Part shown: positions 20,940-29,337 of the stretch, in pieces
Numbering within the stretch: the first letter of the stretch is position 1
How the letters are laid out: every line of letters starts with the position of its first letter
Notes under the pieces: model-generated
Databases searched by the model: none
Seen by the model: the letters and a program-made list of their open reading frames with translations, nothing else
What the model was told of the DNA's origin: nothing
Program-made: the position numbers and the translations under genes
Assembly: GCA_005808505.1 (NCBI GenBank)
Contig: SYLX01000215.1
Coordinates: forward strand, 1 to 64,000
DNA: 64,000 bases
Source of the DNA: Bdellovibrionales bacterium
GTDB taxonomy: Bacteria; Bdellovibrionota; Bdellovibrionia; Bdellovibrionales; JAMPXM01
Direction: 5' to 3'

Positions 20940-21620
20940 TCAGGCCTGAGCGGCCAGGTGCTCCTTAAGATGCTGGTGGAGTGCGCGGAATACTTTCTTA
21001 TCTCGCAAGATTTTTACCATTCCGTAGGCGCCTTCGTGGTTCATGACGATGAACTCCGCGAGGTGGCGAATGTTGACGCCTTTTCTCAAGTGACCTCGAG
21101 ACTCGGCACGCTTGAGATTCTTCTCGATTCCGGAGATCCAAATCTCCAGAACGTCGCGGAGCTTATCGCGAAAGACCGGATCAACAGACGACATCTCCTG
21201 AATCAGGTTATTGAGCGGACATCCCAGCGACAAATGTTCTTCAGGACTCGCATCGATGATCTTTTTTAAATTGATCGTGATTCCCTCGAGCGGATTTTCG
21301 TATTCATCAAGAGGCGCGATCCAGCGATCGATCGTCATCTTGCGCAAGGTCTCATCAACGATCGCGTAACCGAGCGCTTCCTTCGTCGGGAAGTGATGAA
21401 AGAAAGCCCCCTTCGTCAAATCCGTTTTCTCGAGAATGTCGTTGATGCTGACGCCTTGAAAGCCATTTCTAAAAATCTCGTGGAAGGCAACGTCAAGAAT
21501 CTGCGCACGTGTCGCTTGCGGATTGCGAACTTTTGTTTTCGCATTCGCCTTGCCCAAAGGCCGTTTCGCATTTTTCAGATTCCGATGGCTAGGGAGGGAT
21601 GTCTTACTCATTTTATCCAT
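20940..21620 (-). CDS. TetR/AcrR family repressor
   Basis: The 226-residue protein has a basic N-terminal extension (about 30 residues). The TetR DNA-binding domain lies at about 36-82, with ATRAQILDVAFHEIFRNGF and the recognition region VSINDILEKTDLTKGAFFHHF. A helical ligand-binding domain includes LSLGCPLNNLIQEMS, typical of the group with a conserved GCPLxNL. It is transcribed divergently from the SRPBCC gene. The spacer holds two ATACC-N4-GGTAT palindromes, and an extended -10 (TGGTATGAT on the minus strand, 21703-21711) overlaps one of them, so autorepression is likely. The inducer is unknown. Confidence 0.92.
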   Translation of the reverse strand: MDKMSKTSLPSHRNLKNAKRPLGKANAKTKVRNPQATRAQILDVAFHEIFRNGFQGVSINDILEKTDLTKGAFFHHFPTKEALGYAIVDETLRKMTIDRWIAPLDEYENPLEGITINLKKIIDASPEEHLSLGCPLNNLIQEMSSVDPVFRDKLRDVLEIWISGIEKNLKRAESRGHLRKGVNIRHLAEFIVMNHEGAYGMVKILRDKKVFRALHQHLKEHLAAQA

Positions 21621-21705: not shown

Positions 21706-21740
21706 ATACCAGCTGGTATTTACAACATACCACGGGGTAT
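21706..21740. promoter_or_regulatory. Paired TetR operators in the divergent promoter
   Basis: ATACC-AGCT-GGTAT (21706-21719) and ATACC-ACGG-GGTAT (21727-21740) are two palindromes with centres 21 bp apart, two helical turns. TGGTATTTA (21714-21722) resembles an extended -10 for the SRPBCC gene. TGGTATGAT on the other strand suits tetR. The same arrangement recurs at 28392-28426. Confidence 0.8.
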
Positions 21741-21779
21741 GTGAACCTTCAAGAAGCCCACCCAGACACCGGAGCCACC

Positions 21780-22319
21780 ATGATCCTCAAGCTGCTCGTG
21801 CTCTTTGCCATCATCGTGATTCTCTTTGGTTTCTACGCAGCGTATTTGCCGGCGGCCTTTCGAGTCGAGAGGAGCGTGACGATCAATGCATCGAAAGATT
21901 TGATCTTCCCCCACTTCAATAATTTGCAGAAGCTCGACGTCTGGAACCCCTTCTCGAAGTCGGATCCCCACATGAAGATGGCTTTCGCAGGCCCGACCGA
22001 AGGAGTAGGCGCAAAAGCCACCTGGGAAGGTAATGCACAAGCCGGTGCCGGCGCGATGGAAATCACTGAAAGTGTTCCGAACGAGTTTGTAAAAATGCGT
22101 CTGGATTTTCGTAAACCCTTTGAAGGCACGAACTACACTCAGTACTCTCTAAGTTCGCAAGGCGATCAAACGACCGCAACGTGGATAATGGAAGGAAAGA
22201 TGGCGTTCATTCCCCGAGCGATCAGCATCTTCTTCAGCATGGACAAGATGATGGGAAGAATGTTCGAACAGGGTCTTGCGCAAGTGAAAACGCTCTCCGA
22301 AGCCGAAGCAAAACGATAA
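21780..22319 (+). CDS. SRPBCC-family protein with N-terminal membrane anchor
   Basis: The 179-residue protein starts with one transmembrane helix (LKLLVLFAIIVILFGFYAAYL). A START/polyketide-cyclase-like SRPBCC domain follows (FRVERSVTINASKDLIFPHFNNLQKLDVWNPFSK, then WEGNAQAGAGAMEITE and FEGTNYTQYSLS). This fold binds hydrophobic small molecules in a cavity. The start is the ATG at 21780 just after GGAG. A much longer in-frame ORF reaches back into tetR and is not real. The gene is divergent from tetR and probably controlled by it. Confidence 0.85.
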   Translation: MILKLLVLFAIIVILFGFYAAYLPAAFRVERSVTINASKDLIFPHFNNLQKLDVWNPFSKSDPHMKMAFAGPTEGVGAKATWEGNAQAGAGAMEITESVPNEFVKMRLDFRKPFEGTNYTQYSLSSQGDQTTATWIMEGKMAFIPRAISIFFSMDKMMGRMFEQGLAQVKTLSEAEAKR

Positions 22320-22346
22320 GATCCTCCGAAAACACGCGGATCTTTT
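22318..22346 (+). terminator. Terminator of the SRPBCC gene
   Basis: AAGATCC pairs with GGATCTT around a 13-base loop and is followed by TTTT. The 5' arm overlaps the stop codon. MATE begins 42 bases later, so readthrough could still supply that gene. Confidence 0.5.
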
Positions 22347-22387
22347 AAAAGCACCCCGACCAAGACCGACGAAGCAGGAACAACTCA

Positions 22388-23755
22388 ATGAAGATCCGCG
22401 AAAAGTTCGCTGTCCTCCGCCGCGCCCTCAAAGGAGAAGAACACGACTATACGGAGGGAAACCTTTCGGAAGCCGTAATCCTCCTCTCCATCCCCATGAT
22501 CCTCGAGCTTGGCCTTGAGAGCGTCTTCGCCGTGGTCGATATGTTTTTTGTCAGTCGCCTTGGCCAAAACGCCATCGTGACCGTGGGTCTTACGGAATCC
22601 GTCGTGACCATCATCTACTCGCTCGGCATCGGCATCTCAACGGGCGCTACGGCGATTGTTGCGCGCAGAATCGGCGAGAAGAATCCCGAAGCAGCAGCAC
22701 ACGCGGGAGCTCAGGCGCTAGTCCTTGCCGCCATTGCTTCCATCATTCTAAGCATCGTCGGCGTCATCTTCGCCGGAGACATTCTTCGTTTGATGGGCGC
22801 CAGCGCAGGTGTCATTGAAGAAGGAACAAAATTCGCGCAGATCATGATTGGCGGGAACCTTGTTATTCTCCTTCTCTTCTTAATCAACGGAATTTTCCGC
22901 GGAGCCGGTGATGCTGCGATCGCGATGAAGAGCCTGTGGCTTGCTAGCATCGCGAACATCATTTTCTGCCCGATCTTCATCCACTTTTTCGGACTCACCG
23001 GCGCTGCGATTGCAACCGTGCTGGGAAGAGCAACGGGTGTCGCGTATCAATGTCGCCATCTTTTCAAAGGCGACGGTGTGCTGGAATTCCGCGCCTCGCA
23101 TTTTGCACTCGATCTTCCGGTCATCAAAACGGTCGCGCAAATTGCGTGGCCAGCGTCGTTTCAATTCTTAATCGGCAGCGGAAGCTGGATCTTCATCACC
23201 AAACTCGTGGCGGAGAGTGGCGGAACGGCGGCTTCCGCTGGCTACCAAATCGCGTTCCGAAACTTCGTCTTCTTCATTCTGCCCGCCTGGGGCTTGAGCA
23301 ACGCCGCCGCTACTCTTGTTGGACAAAACCTCGGCGCAAAGAAGTTCGATCGTGCGGAAGAAGCCGTCTACATCACCGCAAAATACAGCGCGGTCCTCAT
23401 GGCGATCGTGACGGTGTTCTTCTTCCTCTTCTCGGCTCCGATCGTGAGAATTTTCACGCAAGATCCCGAAGTCATCGCTCATGGAGTCCGCGCACTGCAG
23501 ATCATCGCTTCAGGCTACGTATTCTACGGGCTCGCGATGGTTATGACTCAGGCACTTAACGGCGCGGGCGACACGAAGACTCCCACGTGGATCAACTTCG
23601 TTTGCTTTTGGATTCTGCAGATGCCGCTCGCCTACGCACTCGTCAAAGGATTCGATGCGAGCGCCATCATCGCGGTTCCTGTTTCGGAAGCGATACTTGC
23701 TCTCATGGCTTGGTACTTCTTCCGCCGCGGAGGATGGAAGAAGGTTCAAGTCTGA
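22388..23755 (+). CDS. MATE family efflux transporter
   Basis: The 455-residue inner-membrane protein has twelve predicted spans. MATE hallmarks include the N-terminal LSIPMILELGLESVFAVVDMFFVSRLG and its second-half counterpart from about residue 245 (IAWPASFQFLIGSGSWIFITKLVAESGG). ALNGAGDTKTPTWINFVCFW is near the end. It should export cationic or hydrophobic compounds in exchange for Na+ or H+. The gene lies just downstream of the SRPBCC gene on the same strand, so the TetR operators may also affect it. It ends tail to tail with the GIDE-propeller gene. Confidence 0.93.
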   Translation: MKIREKFAVLRRALKGEEHDYTEGNLSEAVILLSIPMILELGLESVFAVVDMFFVSRLGQNAIVTVGLTESVVTIIYSLGIGISTGATAIVARRIGEKNPEAAAHAGAQALVLAAIASIILSIVGVIFAGDILRLMGASAGVIEEGTKFAQIMIGGNLVILLLFLINGIFRGAGDAAIAMKSLWLASIANIIFCPIFIHFFGLTGAAIATVLGRATGVAYQCRHLFKGDGVLEFRASHFALDLPVIKTVAQIAWPASFQFLIGSGSWIFITKLVAESGGTAASAGYQIAFRNFVFFILPAWGLSNAAATLVGQNLGAKKFDRAEEAVYITAKYSAVLMAIVTVFFFLFSAPIVRIFTQDPEVIAHGVRALQIIASGYVFYGLAMVMTQALNGAGDTKTPTWINFVCFWILQMPLAYALVKGFDASAIIAVPVSEAILALMAWYFFRRGGWKKVQV

Positions 23756-23759
23756 GTAG

Positions 23760-25922
23760 TCAGTCCGCTTTCTTAGATTTAACCGGTGGGTGACTCGAAT
23801 GAGGCGATCTTAAGAATTCAATGTAATCGCGAAGCGTGTGAAAGTCCTCGCGCTTATATCTCGTCGAATGCGAAGGCCGGTCGTCCCCTTCACGAGGATT
23901 TGGTGTATTTGAAAGTGCACAGGCTTCACGTTTGCCGGCTCGGCAGACTCCTCGCATGAGGGCGTAGCCGTAGTTTGTGTTTCCGTTCAGGAGAGCTTTA
24001 GTTGCCTCGCTCCAGCACTTCGCCGAAATCGTGAGGCAAAGCTCCGGGTCAATCGCGACATCCTTCTTATTCCAAAATGAGTTCACGTCATGTTCACGAA
24101 GCGATGGATCACTCATTTTAAACTCCGAGACTTGTCCGCTTGATGTATCCCAAATCCGCTTCGTCTCAGGGAGGTAGAACCATCGACCGTCTAAGGAAAG
24201 ACCAGCTGATCGTAAATCCCCTTCTTTTACGCAGAAGTAAGAACAGAACTTCGTCAGCTTTCCGGAAACAAGATCTGCATGGATGAGATCGTTGACATCA
24301 TTCATGAGTCCAACAGCGTATCGACCATCTTGACTAAAAACCGCCGACCGCAGACCGAGGTCCGAAGGAGATTTCGCAATCTCGGGTTTAAAGAACCGCG
24401 CATTCTTCGGATAGCCATAGGCGCTGTGTTCTATTTGAAGCTTTTGGAGACCTTCATCCCAAACGTACCAAGAGGGTGTTGGATTTCCTTCTGTCGTGGC
24501 CGTGAATGCAATCAGCTGGCCTCCGGGAGAGGACTGCAAACTATCAGGGTCAGCTGTCGAGAGGACCTTTTGATAATCAACTTTTTGAGCCTTACGATCC
24601 CAAATCACAAAACGCGGTGGCGTCTCGCCAACTAGGCCTGCAAATTTCTCTGCGGAAAGTCCAACAGGCGTTACGCTTAGAAGTCCTGGTTGAAACCAAC
24701 GACTGACAATTCGCTTCTCCTCAAGATCCCAAAGATCCGCAGAGACAAATTTATCGCCGTCACCCCACCCGTCGTCGCGAACAAAGAGCAGGAATCGGTC
24801 CGCCCAGACATGCGGCGGCCCCGCAAACTTTGCATTATATCCAGCTTCAAAAGATGCAAATAGAAGCTCTGACTTCGGCATTTCAAGTACAGCGAGCGCG
24901 TGGTTCAAGCTCACTACAATTTTAGTCTGCGAGTCCTTCCCTTTAGAGGCCTGTGAATTCGATTCTTTTTGCGCGGGCGGAACGGCGACCTCAATGACAT
25001 TAGCCACCTCGCGCGACTTATAAGTCTTCATCACCCAAAGAAAAATGTTCGTCGTAACGAGCGCCAAGCAGGCAGCGCCGACCAAGAAATTTTTTACGAC
25101 GCCTTTTCTCACCTTCGCGATGAGTTCGTCTTCCTTAACGTCGGAAACGAAATGCTCCGTAAGCGAGCTGATCTCGACGACCCCGTACCTATAAATCTGG
25201 TGATCTGAAGCCAGTTTTTTAGTTCCTCGGTAAAATTCTTCCGCGAGTGCTGTCGTGTAGCGGGCGAGATCGGAGGTTTGCGAAAATCTGAGTGCTGAGC
25301 CTTCCACGGAGCTTCCAAAAAGTTCGTAGTGGAAACTGCAGAGAGCCGCATCGCTGATGAGTGCTGGCGTTTCACCTTTGAAAAGGCCCCGAACGTAAAC
25401 GGGATGGCCAACTAAGAACGAGTGCTCGACGACCCTGAACTTCTTCGGATTTTGTTCGAGGGCCGGCAGCTTATCTTTTATCACTTCATTTCGAATCAAT
25501 TCGCGCTGTTGGGAATCAAGTTCCTCCCACATGAGAGTTTTTTGATTCTTCGGCTGCGACCTTAAGAATACGGAGTGCGCCATAACGTAGGCGGCGCCGC
25601 CTTTGTCGACGACGAAAAAAGGTAACCACTGCTCATCTTTCACCTTTTCTACCCAGGTCGTTCCTCCATTTTTCGTCTCGGTAGATTCTTCGACTCGAAG
25701 AATTCGGAAGATGGCCGGACCGCCGCGGAGAGTTTCGAATGGTTTTACAAGCGGCCACGCGAACCCCTCGAGTTCGACCCCGCCCACGGCAGCGGCCGAT
25801 GTCGTGGACCGCTCGGTATCCCCCACGAGGCGAGCGCGGCGGAAACTGAGATAAGCACGAACCACTTTGTAAGTACCGACGACGAAGAGAAAAATTCCGA
25901 TCGTCCAGCTCTCAAATAGCAC
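23760..25922 (-). CDS. GIDE/BAM-domain membrane protein fused to a propeller-like region
   Basis: The 720-residue protein opens with a transmembrane helix (6-26) and RRARLVGDTERST. A GIDE-like domain follows (about 30-180: VELEGFAWPLVKPFETLRGG, FFVVDKGGAAYV, KFRVVEHSFLVGHPVYVRGLF). A second membrane helix is at about 278-298. Residues about 360-620 contain repeated WD/propeller-like strands (FVIWDRK, SPGGQLIAFTATT, WYVWDEGL, FSQDGRYAVGLM, LSLDGRWFYLP). A Cys-rich Sel1-like end follows (MRGVCRAGKREACAL). GIDE domains occur in the eukaryotic mitochondrial ligase MULAN, but no RING finger is present here. It is paralogous to the gene at 32254-33465. The start is a GTG. Confidence 0.7.
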   Translation of the reverse strand: MLFESWTIGIFLFVVGTYKVVRAYLSFRRARLVGDTERSTTSAAAVGGVELEGFAWPLVKPFETLRGGPAIFRILRVEESTETKNGGTTWVEKVKDEQWLPFFVVDKGGAAYVMAHSVFLRSQPKNQKTLMWEELDSQQRELIRNEVIKDKLPALEQNPKKFRVVEHSFLVGHPVYVRGLFKGETPALISDAALCSFHYELFGSSVEGSALRFSQTSDLARYTTALAEEFYRGTKKLASDHQIYRYGVVEISSLTEHFVSDVKEDELIAKVRKGVVKNFLVGAACLALVTTNIFLWVMKTYKSREVANVIEVAVPPAQKESNSQASKGKDSQTKIVVSLNHALAVLEMPKSELLFASFEAGYNAKFAGPPHVWADRFLLFVRDDGWGDGDKFVSADLWDLEEKRIVSRWFQPGLLSVTPVGLSAEKFAGLVGETPPRFVIWDRKAQKVDYQKVLSTADPDSLQSSPGGQLIAFTATTEGNPTPSWYVWDEGLQKLQIEHSAYGYPKNARFFKPEIAKSPSDLGLRSAVFSQDGRYAVGLMNDVNDLIHADLVSGKLTKFCSYFCVKEGDLRSAGLSLDGRWFYLPETKRIWDTSSGQVSEFKMSDPSLREHDVNSFWNKKDVAIDPELCLTISAKCWSEATKALLNGNTNYGYALMRGVCRAGKREACALSNTPNPREGDDRPSHSTRYKREDFHTLRDYIEFLRSPHSSHPPVKSKKAD

Positions 25923-25982
25923 AACCTGCTCCGAGGATTTTGGGGGTAACCTTATGATAGATGATTTCTGGAGGCTTCACAC

Positions 25983-26657
25983 ATGTATCATGCGTTTCTG
26001 TTTATCCTCGCGCTCGCCACGTCTCACCTCTTTTTGCCTGCGCACGCTACACCTCCGCTTCCACCCAAGACGAAGGACGTGCCCATTGAAGAAGCGATCC
26101 GAGATTTTAAAGCCGCGGCAAATTCAGAGAATCTCCACGAGGAATACACGTTGCTCTTGCTAGAGCTACAGAAGGTGTTCGAAGTCCGCCGACAAGTCGC
26201 GGTTGAAATCGACAATCCAAAGAGTCTGTTTTCAGGGAATTCGGGGTTAATCTCGAACCTACAAAGCAAGATTATATCGTTTGGAGTTCGCTCGCTTCCG
26301 CTCCCTCTCAAAAGCCAGATCGATGCTTTCCTCCCTAGAATCGAAAATACGTTCGAAAAGATCCGAAAGAAGGACGAGACGGAAAATTCCCTTGGGGAAT
26401 TCGCAGGTGAGGAAAAAGACCTTCGAACGATCCTCTCTTGGATCTACTTTCATCGAGGCGAGTGCGGAAAAGTGAAAAGCTACTACCTCTCGCAATGGGA
26501 GAAGCTGATGCTCGCGCAGGGTTCAGAAGACTCTTTCAGTAGAACTTCACAAAAACTCGTTTGGCTTGAAGAGAGTGATGTCCGAACTATCTTGAAGAGA
26601 TGTCTCTCACCCTCTGAGTACGCAACTCTCATGAAGCAGTACCATCAAGAGAACTAA
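25983..26657 (+). CDS. Secreted helical protein of unknown function
   Basis: The 224-residue protein has a clear signal peptide (AFLFILALATSHLFLPAHA) and then a mostly helical charged body. Segments include IEEAIRDFKAAANSENLHEEYTLL, a central IENTFEKIRKKDETENSL and the C-terminal DVRTILKRCLSPSEYATLMKQYH. Two cysteines remain after cleavage. GGAGG precedes the ATG. It is transcribed divergently from the GIDE-propeller gene with 60 bases between starts, so the two may be co-regulated. No family is recognised. Confidence 0.7.
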   Translation: MYHAFLFILALATSHLFLPAHATPPLPPKTKDVPIEEAIRDFKAAANSENLHEEYTLLLLELQKVFEVRRQVAVEIDNPKSLFSGNSGLISNLQSKIISFGVRSLPLPLKSQIDAFLPRIENTFEKIRKKDETENSLGEFAGEEKDLRTILSWIYFHRGECGKVKSYYLSQWEKLMLAQGSEDSFSRTSQKLVWLEESDVRTILKRCLSPSEYATLMKQYHQEN

Positions 26658-26725
26658 ACATCTGAAGCTGAACTCTTGCTCACGCGATGTTGCCTGCATA
26701 GATCGAAGCAAGTTAAACCAAATGC

Positions 26726-27595
26726 ATGCCGGAACTAGCCGAAGTTGAAACCGTCCGCAGGCAAATCGTAAAGCGTTTAAAAAAACGCAAAATCAAAGAG
26801 GTCATCGCGGATGAATCCGACCGATACCTCTTCGCTTTCGCGGCGGTCTCGGAGTTTCGCGAAGCGCTTGAAGGCGCCACGATTCTTGATGCGCACCGAA
26901 AAGGAAAATACTTTTGGCTGGAGCTTGATCGCAAGCCGTGGCCGATCTTCCATCTCGGGATGAGCGGCAACATCGCTATCCTTGATCCCAAGGCGAAGAA
27001 ACTCGGGCACGAACGCATTTGGGGTGGCGCGAAGATGTGGAGTGAACGCGATCGAGACCTCAAGGATCGACTCACCTTTTGTCATCTCTTGATGGAATTC
27101 GAGAAGGGATACGAGTTTGCGTTTCTCGATCCACGAAGATTCGGACGCGTTTGGCTCAGCGATGACCCATGGACACATCCTCGCATCGCGCAGCTCGGTT
27201 TTGATCCTTTACTTGATTTCCCTTCAGCGAAGGTACTCGGTGAGAAGTTAAGCCGTCGGAAGAAAGCAATCAAAGCCGTCTTGCTTGATCAAGCTTTGTT
27301 CGCCGGAATCGGCAATTGGCTCGCGGACGAAATCCTCTTTCACGCGCGTCTTTCACCACATCATCTCTCCTCGTCGTTAAACGAGAAACAAGTTGCGGAA
27401 CTTCGGCGCAAGATTCTCGCTGTTGTGAATAAAGCCGTGGATGTTGATGCGGACTACGAACGCTTCCCCAAGGGGTGGCTCTTCCATGAGCGGTGGGGAA
27501 AGAACGAGAAAGCAAAAACCCATCGTGGGCAAAAGATCATCCATGAGGAAATTGGCGGTCGAACGACCGCCTGGGTACCGGGCTGGCAGGTTTAA
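26726..27595 (+). CDS. Fpg/Nei-family DNA glycosylase with a zincless finger
   Basis: The 289-residue protein begins MPELAEVETVRR, so Pro 2 is the Schiff-base nucleophile and Glu 3 the acid, with Lys in DAHRKGKYFW as the conserved lysine. The H2TH region (KAVLLDQALFAGIGNWLADEILFHARLSP) is intact. The C-terminal CxxC-CxxC zinc finger is absent. Its place is taken by WLFHERWGKNEKAKTHRGQKIIHEEIGGRTTAWVPGWQ, a zincless finger layout like plant FPG or NEIL1, keeping the Arg of GGRTTAW. It should excise oxidised bases and nick at abasic sites. Confidence 0.9.
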   Translation: MPELAEVETVRRQIVKRLKKRKIKEVIADESDRYLFAFAAVSEFREALEGATILDAHRKGKYFWLELDRKPWPIFHLGMSGNIAILDPKAKKLGHERIWGGAKMWSERDRDLKDRLTFCHLLMEFEKGYEFAFLDPRRFGRVWLSDDPWTHPRIAQLGFDPLLDFPSAKVLGEKLSRRKKAIKAVLLDQALFAGIGNWLADEILFHARLSPHHLSSSLNEKQVAELRRKILAVVNKAVDVDADYERFPKGWLFHERWGKNEKAKTHRGQKIIHEEIGGRTTAWVPGWQV

Positions 27596-27726
27596 ATTGG
27601 TGTGACCAATAGGACCACTAGCGCGAGTCATGAACGAAACTGCATCCCTCGGAAGAGGAGCGAAGAGTAAGATGATGCGCGAAACGATCGTGGATTGCTC
27701 ACACCAAACAAGAGAAAGGGTCACCT

Positions 27727-28257
27727 ATGATTAAACTAACATTTGCTGTCCTAGCTTTAACGCTCGCCGTATCGACACCAGCTTCAGCCGATGAACTGCA
27801 GCCCGTGGAGCGAGTCGATCTCGCGCGCTATGCAGGTGCCTGGTACGAGATCGCTAGTAAACCCACGTTCTTCCAAAAAGGCTGCGTGTGCACACGACAG
27901 GTCCTCACAGCGCGCGCAGACGGACAACTTGACGTCTACAACTCCTGCAACAAGAAAACTCCGCAAGGTAAGTTGCGCGATATTCGCGGCACGGCTGAAA
28001 ATGTAGATCCGTCTTCCAACGCGAAGTTCAAAGTTGATTTCGGATTTCCGTGGAAAGGTGACTACTGGATCATCGGCCTTGCCGAGGACTACTCTTGGGC
28101 CGTGGTGAGCGATCCAGGCAACACGACTCTTTATATCCTCTCGAAAACGCCTACGCTCAGCCAGGCAGCTTATGATCAAGCCGTGGCTTCCGCAGCGAAG
28201 CAGAAAGACACCAGCGTGTTAGCAAAAACCCGTCAGGCAGATTGCACTTACCCCTAA
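27727..28257 (+). CDS. Exported lipocalin (Blc-like)
   Basis: The 176-residue protein has a signal peptide ending ASA. The lipocalin signature GAWYEIASKP is near residue 38, with the second conserved region DYSWAVVSDPGNTTLYILSKTP near 121-142. Bacterial lipocalins of this type bind lysophospholipids or fatty acids in the cell envelope. Blc is a lipoprotein, whereas this one lacks a lipobox and should be periplasmic. A pair CVCTR and the terminal DCTYP supply cysteines for a disulfide, as in many lipocalins. AAGGGTC precedes the ATG. Confidence 0.93.
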   Translation: MIKLTFAVLALTLAVSTPASADELQPVERVDLARYAGAWYEIASKPTFFQKGCVCTRQVLTARADGQLDVYNSCNKKTPQGKLRDIRGTAENVDPSSNAKFKVDFGFPWKGDYWIIGLAEDYSWAVVSDPGNTTLYILSKTPTLSQAAYDQAVASAAKQKDTSVLAKTRQADCTYP

Positions 28258-28369
28258 CTCTTACCTAAACAGAAGCACGCAGCGCTTGGGCCCAAAGACT
28301 GAATTAGAGACCAGCAAAACCAGTTGGCTCGTGGGCCCTTCGCATTTTGAGACTCTAAAGCTATTCTTC

Positions 28370-28426
28370 TTTACACCCGATGAGCCACTACATACCATAT
28401 GGTATGTAGTACATACCGATTGGTAT
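28370..28426 (+). promoter_or_regulatory. Promoter and paired TetR operators before the VOC gene
   Basis: ATACC-ATAT-GGTAT (28392-28405) lies in a perfect 24-bp palindrome (28387-28410). ATACC-GATT-GGTAT is at 28413-28426. Their centres are 21 bp apart, as at the tetR promoter. TTTACA (28370-28375) and TACCAT (28393-28398) are spaced 17 bp. TGGTATTTA (28421-28429) is an alternative extended -10 shared with the SRPBCC promoter. Confidence 0.8.
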
Positions 28427-28461: not shown

Positions 28462-29337
28462 ATGATGGCGCAACTTGGGACTTGTCTTTGGTTTGACCAG
28501 CAAGGCGACGACGCAGCGAAGTTTTATACGAATTTGTTCCCTAGTTCACGCATCACTCGTTCCGGAAAATACGGAAGTCAGACGGCGCCAGTCATCGGCC
28601 GTACGCCTGGTACGACGATGGCGGTGGAATTCAATATCGCTAACGCAATCGTTATGGCTCTCAACGGCGGCCCGATTTTCAAGGCTACACCCGGTCTCTC
28701 GTTCTTTGTCACCTGCACCGATGAAGCCGAAATCAACTCGCTTTGGAAATCACTTTCCGAAGGCGGCACGGTTCGGATGAGATTAGACAAATATCCGTGG
28801 GCCGATCGCTACGGCTGGACGAGCGATCGATTCGGCGTCGAGTGGCAATTGATCCTCACGCCAAATTCGACCGGTGAGAAGATTGCTTCATCCTTCTTGT
28901 TTGTCGATGAGCTTTTCGGTCGCGGTGAAGAGGCCATCAAACACTACATGTCGATCTTTCCGAACTCAAAGATCCAGGCCATCAGTCACGATGAGAAAAC
29001 AAAAACCGTCATGCACGGAGCATTCACGCTCAATGGCCAAGACTTTAAGTTGATGGAAGGCCCCGGCACCCATAGCTGGAAGTTCAACGAAGCCACGTCT
29101 ATTGTCGTGTTCTGCGATACTCAAGATGAGATCGACTACTATTGGTCAAAGCTGCTGGCGGGCGGATCCGAATCCCAGTGCGGATGGCTTAAAGATAAAT
29201 ACGGCGTATCTTGGCAGATCGTACCTAGTTTCATGGGTGCTCTGATGGCGGACGAGAAGAACGTCGATAAAATCATGCAAGTCGTCTTCCCGATGAAGAA
29301 GATCGACATGAAAAAGATTCTTCAGGCCGTTGGCTAA
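28462..29337 (+). CDS. Tandem VOC (PhnB-like) protein
   Basis: The 291-residue protein is two copies of the PhnB/3-demethylubiquinone methyltransferase-like VOC domain. Copy one (about 3-135) has LGTCLWFDQQGDDAAKFYTNLFPSS and DRYGWTSDRFGVEWQLIL. Copy two (about 145-270) has RGEEAIKHYMSIFPNSKI and KDKYGVSWQIVPSFM. VOC proteins bind metals or small compounds and include resistance proteins and glyoxalases. Activity here is unassigned. AAGGAGAGA precedes the ATG pair at 28462/28465, and an upstream in-frame ATG lies inside the operator and is rejected. Control by the TetR at 20940-21620 is suggested by shared operators. Confidence 0.88.
   Translation: MMAQLGTCLWFDQQGDDAAKFYTNLFPSSRITRSGKYGSQTAPVIGRTPGTTMAVEFNIANAIVMALNGGPIFKATPGLSFFVTCTDEAEINSLWKSLSEGGTVRMRLDKYPWADRYGWTSDRFGVEWQLILTPNSTGEKIASSFLFVDELFGRGEEAIKHYMSIFPNSKIQAISHDEKTKTVMHGAFTLNGQDFKLMEGPGTHSWKFNEATSIVVFCDTQDEIDYYWSKLLAGGSESQCGWLKDKYGVSWQIVPSFMGALMADEKNVDKIMQVVFPMKKIDMKKILQAVG

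Follow-up and report, generated by a model that had tools for sequence, protein, structure and literature searches.

A TetR-family repressor with paired operators at two promoters, and its probable regulon, in a relative of Bdellovibrio

The window considered here is a stretch of 64,000 nucleotides, positions 1 to 64,000 of contig SYLX01000215.1 (contig C200) in the assembly GCA_005808505.1 (G000; 5.05 Mb in 269 contigs, 93% complete, 7.13% contamination), from a Bdellovibrionales bacterium that belongs to the same order as its relative, the predatory bacterium Bdellovibrio. Within the window, a tetR gene is found back to back with a gene for an SRPBCC protein, which is followed by a gene for a MATE transporter, while a gene for a PhnB-like VOC protein, matched by the PhnB structure 3oms, lies further along the same contig (Table 1). 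The promoters of the first two genes and of the VOC gene carry the same paired palindromes, and it is highly likely, on the evidence of sequence comparison, that the TetR_C_13-type repressor encoded here governs a regulon made up of its own gene, the SRPBCC gene and the VOC gene; this level of confidence refers to the regulon and not to the inducer.

Table 1. Positions of genes, predicted operators and a hairpin in the window
Feature	Position	Strand	Description	Basis
tetR	20940..21620	-	226 amino acids, TetR_N + TetR_C_13, sole cysteine C134	Open reading frame (ORF), Pfam, NCBIfam, cysteine count
Operator 1, tetR/SRPBCC promoter	21706..21719		ATACCAGCTGGTAT; right arm belongs to TGGTATTTA	
Operator 2, tetR/SRPBCC promoter	21727..21740		ATACCACGGGGTAT; within complete 18-bp form 21725-21742, ACATACCACGGGGTATGT	
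SRPBCC gene (Polyketide_cyc2)	21780..22319	+	179 amino acids, divergent from tetR, probable target	Pfam, homologues near tetR in relatives
Weak terminator-like hairpin, SRPBCC-MATE gap	22318..22344	+	Fold -8.4 kcal/mol, z -2.41, 5/200 shuffles equal or better	
MATE transporter gene	22388..23755	+	Neighbour, probably no conserved part of the regulon	Pfam
Operator 1, VOC promoter	28392..28405		ATACCATATGGTAT; within complete 18-bp form 28390-28407	
Operator 2, VOC promoter	28413..28426		ATACCGATTGGTAT; overlaps TGGTATTTA	
VOC gene, PhnB-like	28462..29337 (start 28462 or 28465)	+	Two 3-dmu-9_3-mt domains, probable target	Pfam

A direct scan recovers all four of the exact ATACC-N4-GGTAT palindromes that the original prediction had placed at these promoters. 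They form two pairs, and the centre-to-centre spacing, when recomputed, is again 21 bp in each. The element TGGTATTTA, confirmed as common to one site of each pair, is compatible with an extended -10. The palindrome is in fact longer than 14 bp, and one site at each promoter has the complete form ACATACC-N4-GGTATGT. The SRPBCC gene starts 40 positions past the end of the last site and the VOC gene 36 past. Because the sites overlap TGGTATTTA, with its likeness to an extended -10, occlusion of RNA polymerase would be the likeliest mode of repression. The similarity of the half-sites to this element is also what might be said for regarding the pairs as chance occurrences or as mere extended -10 elements, but their rarity and their conservation across genomes leave that explanation practically without credence. 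With up to one mismatch allowed, the window holds 4 matches where 0.34 are expected, and none of 100 shuffles reaches that number (the maximum is 3). The original prediction had also proposed a scan of the whole genome; run over the assembly, it finds 5 exact sites, as opposed to 1 for the pattern read backwards, and four of the five are the window sites, so that exact sites are not scattered elsewhere. When one mismatch is allowed, the assembly yields 28 sites against 26 for the backwards control. This count is at background and the signal is therefore limited to the exact sites; one-mismatch sites were accordingly rejected as additional targets.

On contig C2 (L047:9720-9763) lies the fifth exact site, a complete ACATACCATTTGGTATGT, 25 nt upstream of the probable GTG start of a gene for a DUF899 protein. 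This gene is a probable third target, with a single site, in this genome. The contig itself was considered as a contaminant. In tetranucleotide composition, however, it lies at a distance of 0.102 from the window; segments of the window, themselves included in the reference, give 0.065-0.085, and four relatives give 0.286-0.512. The contig probably belongs to the genome, with the contamination level of the assembly as a caveat.

Comparison across 143 genomes of the class provides the main support for the assignment of these sites to the adjacent repressor. TetR matches at a threshold of E 1e-25 are found in 27 of them. An orthologue of the window TetR is also carried by B. bacteriovorus kdesi. 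Exact matches to the extended operator, written as ACATACY-N4-RGTATGT, number 30 and are spread over 24 of the class genomes, against 11 for the backwards control, and 24 of the 30 adjoin a relative of tetR (truncated at the contig end in one case, G004). Four of the remaining six directly precede PhnB-like VOC genes, in genomes G030, G042 and G103 and in the window; the last two lie before the DUF899 gene of the window's genome and within an ORF in G105. In G030, G042 and G103, moreover, the site directly before the VOC gene is the sole exact copy remote from tetR. The VOC protein of G103 is 40.6% identical to that of the window over 286 amino acids. In G061, G082, G084 and G108, the PhnB-like VOC gene is found in an operon beside tetR. 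In a test on 28 genomes, each represented by its best VOC homologue, a looser form of the site, ATAYY-N4-RRTAT, precedes the gene in 4 of the 14 that have the TetR (the 14 include G033 and G046, which have only a paralogue-type TetR) and in none of the 14 without it. Of 27 other class genomes with the TetR, 18 have an SRPBCC homologue in the sequence stretch around tetR.

The sequences directly display the sites, show that these are rare and follow tetR from genome to genome, and show that the VOC target recurs. The same operator stands at the repressor's own promoter and at distant targets, and does so repeatedly in relatives, as is found when a TetR regulon spans unlinked promoters. That this TetR controls the VOC gene, originally offered as an inference, is in this way supported and appears very probable. 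Of the single regulon that had been proposed, the SRPBCC and VOC genes are retained and the MATE gene is not. As a separate observation, the best VOC homologue is found about 4.5, 11 and 14 kb from such a tetR in G054, G103 and G046, respectively, and 6.7 kb from it in the window; the homologues in G054 and G046 have no operator in the looser-form test.

The operator type extends well outside the class. In a set of 110 TetR genes, comprising 109 from a scan of the class, the phylum and the genome contigs together with that of the window, 59 (the window's among them) are preceded, within some 300 bp, by a palindrome of the AC..A type. In the corresponding scan, the 37,389 bp of upstream stretches contain 60 sites, compared with 32 in the 800,197 bp of remaining locus sequence, window included. 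ACATACY forms occur beside relatives from the Bacteroidota, and ACAGACC, ACAAACC or ACCGACY forms beside gammaproteobacterial and some flavobacterial relatives. Since the operator is found beside so many relatives, the motif belongs to a branch of TetR proteins and is no quirk of a single genome. TetR relatives with 47-50% identity and the same operator type are also seen in L136, L137 and L139, on contigs labelled as metagenome-assembled genomes (MAGs) of a Nitrososphaerales archaeon, which may reflect a binning error or transfer.

A number of observations weigh against a regulon of this kind. Among the 14 genomes that have both the TetR and a VOC homologue, ten lack a site ahead of the VOC gene; of these ten, G061, G084 and G108 keep the gene in the operon on the tetR side, and G033 and G046 are the two with only a paralogue-type TetR. 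The exact site in G105 (L128:1907-1924) lies inside an ORF, in a genome in which no tetR was found, and is probably a chance occurrence. The DUF899 site is present at 1 of 7 homologues and before none of the 6 others from the class, so that DUF899 was rejected as a conserved target and is retained for this genome only. No recognisable AC..A operator accompanies 51 of the 110 TetR genes. TetR/MFS loci in G036 and G025, identified from their translations, bear one-mismatch variants of the site, and the motif is thus not exclusive to this repressor. Finally, none of a further 28 sites showed the 21-bp pairing in a scan that looked for a second site scoring more than 10 of 14 positions among the best three per site, and the pairing was rejected as a feature of the family; the exceptions, G061 and G065, have a second site at 76 bp. 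The script used for the pair scan of the 110 genes is too strict and misses the window's own pair, and 21-bp pairs may therefore exist elsewhere. Pairs at 74-76 bp do recur, in contig C40 of the window's genome, G046, G108, G065, G347 and G351, and also in G033 (stretches L046, L055, L056, L114, L116, L118, L253 and L275), and operator pairs at 32 bp are found in two proteobacterial MAGs.

The presence of a second, similar TetR in the same cell has to be considered in assigning the sites. This paralogue, encoded on contig C40 (L046:3936-5614), is 47% identical to the window TetR and its gene is divergent from DoxX and AHSA1 genes. It, or another TetR-family protein of the cell, might bind the window sites while the adjacent tetR controls something else, an idea to which the similar CC-type sites at the two TetR/MFS loci in relatives lend some support. 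Yet the operator beside the C40 gene is ACATATC-N4-GATATGT, with a second copy containing one mismatch 75 bp off, and the same form, which differs at base -4, is found beside three close relatives of the paralogue in G033, G046 and G108. There are five exact sites of this form in the class, four of which adjoin paralogue-type tetR genes, the fifth being in G029. The CC/CT operator, for its part, tracks relatives of the window TetR, and assignment of the sites to another protein is very unlikely. A further site, TCATATC-N4-GATATGT, with one mismatch, is located on contig C259 (L079:1812-1856) just before another PhnB-like VOC gene, which is a possible target of the paralogue, as judged from this site; one-mismatch sites of the TC type are common in the class, however, which makes the site weak evidence for a paralogue regulon.

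The difference at base -4 appears to be mirrored in the proteins. The residue that precedes the helix-3 glycine is residue 70 in the window TetR (codon 21411-21413), and over 60 called sites base -4 is C at 52 of the 53 sites with Lys and at the one with Arg, T at all 4 with Ile and G at the one with Glu, the one remaining site having C at base -4 and no residue call. The single Lys exception, in L193, is a poor palindrome, ACATAGTTCTACCTACGT. As the Ile cases represent one lineage and there is a single Glu case, the relation is a lead and not a rule. For residue 76 and base -3 no clear rule emerged from the rows, which were read and not counted.

The MATE gene was originally thought to begin 42 bases after the SRPBCC gene and perhaps to be controlled with it. 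The real gap is 68 nt (22319 to 22388) and contains the hairpin listed in Table 1. Read-through from the SRPBCC promoter, which would produce an efflux module, is favoured by the shared strand and the size of the gap, by the weakness of the hairpin, which was not listed by a consensus terminator scan, and by the precedent of gloA in Escherichia coli, which is reached by read-through according to PMC3739934. It is disfavoured by the z score of the hairpin and by the surroundings of related tetR genes: a MATE homologue is found in 0 of 28 phylum stretches (2.8-10.8 kb each, such that a more distant MATE gene would escape) and in 1 of 80 wider loci, that of an Alteromonadaceae MAG. Because of the gap, the hairpin and the missing MATE at related loci of the phylum, the gene is left out of the regulon; both its membership and its co-regulation through read-through seem distinctly unlikely, and a small-molecule defence module is, like the efflux part of the proposal, unproven.

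The repressor itself is NemR/AcuR-like. Pfam assigns it to the TetR family through TetR_N (42.1 bits, cut-off 24) and to the TetR_C_13 branch (58.3 bits, cut-off 27), and the best NCBIfam models, AcuR and ScbR-type, are each under their cut-off. Its AlphaFold model has a mean pLDDT, the per-residue confidence score, of 89 and matches TetR structures, the best being the Chloroflexus TetR 3qbm, with NemR (4yze) at rank 18. The only cysteine, C134, aligns with Cys106 of NemR, and K203 with Lys175. All 27 aligned sequences, that of the window and four of the paralogue type included, have both residues, and in a wider alignment of 77 rows, window and NemR included, the cysteine is found in 65 and the lysine in 72. 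In NemR, a Cys106-Lys175 bond is reported to mediate the response to hypochlorite and Cys21 with Cys116 the response to electrophiles, as outlined in a review (PMC7464077). The conserved pair suggests a thiol switch through the Cys106/Lys175 equivalents, and a response to reactive chemicals is plausible.

There are also grounds for thinking that what the protein senses is instead a small ligand bound in the pocket and that the conserved cysteine is structural, with no thiol switch, an alternative that bears on the sensing step alone. The top NCBIfam models, AcuR and ScbR-type, may be read in this way. The same cysteine also occurs in 3bru, a TetR structure from Rhodobacter sphaeroides that was aligned with the protein, and is consequently not diagnostic of NemR-type sensing. 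Equivalents of NemR Cys21 and Cys116 are absent, the window TetR having I49 and S144 at these positions, which also speaks against a NemR-like switch. On the other side stand the invariance of the sole cysteine together with the lysine, and a VOC target that is reminiscent of nemRA-gloA. The case for pocket sensing is evenly poised, and induction by a reactive chemical via C134 and K203 is speculative, something that might be so and that we would not presume.

Taken as a whole, the proposed circuit would operate as follows. The TetR would bind ACATACC-N4-GGTATGT-like palindromes, with two dimers, two helical turns apart and on one face of the helix, at each of the two promoters. Covering the -10 region, the dimers would shut off tetR, SRPBCC and, 6.7 kb away, VOC, while the DUF899 gene on another contig would be a likely third target through its one site. 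An inducer would free the repressor, and the targets would then rise together. Binding, repression and the occupancy of each promoter by two dimers are here predicted from the arrangement of the sites. A broader proposal is that the Bdellovibrionota have two NemR-like paralogues with parallel stress regulons, one for SRPBCC, VOC and DUF899 and the other for DoxX and AHSA1 and perhaps VOC, that these are insulated from one another by one base pair and one residue, with the residue before the helix-3 glycine reading base -4 (Lys/Arg-C, Ile-T, Glu-G), and that C134 and K203 form a minimal bleach or electrophile switch. This joint proposal, the reading of base -4 included, is unlikely to hold in full.

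What results is a bounded regulon in a relative of Bdellovibrio that makes a clear prediction about PhnB-like VOC, SRPBCC and DUF899 proteins, the last of these being a Pfam-named domain of unknown function. The surprise is a modest one and lies in the clean comparative support and in a paralogue with a shifted operator. If the relation of residue 70 to base -4 and the one-cysteine switch are both true, they offer a compact test case for insulation among TetR paralogues, and the subfamily would test the minimal requirements of a NemR-type sensor. No paper describing a regulon of this sort in Bdellovibrio came up in literature searches, and in searches with sequence letters only the top matches were considered.

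The control circuit is of a familiar kind. AcuR, the acrylate utilisation regulator (NF051457), is the best NCBIfam model for the window TetR (E 1.4e-23), but an identification as AcuR was rejected at 83.2 bits against a cut-off of 247. MbdR of Azoarcus (structure 4uds) is likewise a TetR repressor that has operators at several promoters, with ATAC and GTAT arms; the arms are arranged as ATAC-N10-GTAT, as opposed to ATAC-N6-GTAT in the window, and the protein controls 3-methylbenzoate degradation, as stated in PMC4424350. AltR of Pantoea ananatis, as described in PMC13178969, is a TetR repressor related to NemR, for which several operators are predicted and in which a single conserved cysteine is essential, whereas its operator is CAATCTAC-N6-GTAGATTG and its targets are thiosulfinate tolerance genes. 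In E. coli NemR, the sequence identity to the window TetR is 21%, and gloA is expressed via read-through, whereas the VOC gene of the window has its own operator; the predicted targets in the window are SRPBCC, PhnB-like VOC and DUF899, with no NemA-like gene among the genes examined. Yet the nemRA-gloA system, like the one described here, couples a TetR repressor to a target with the glyoxalase (VOC) fold, and its promoter sequence, TAGACC-GACT-GGTCTA, has the same ACC-N4-GGT core and spacing.

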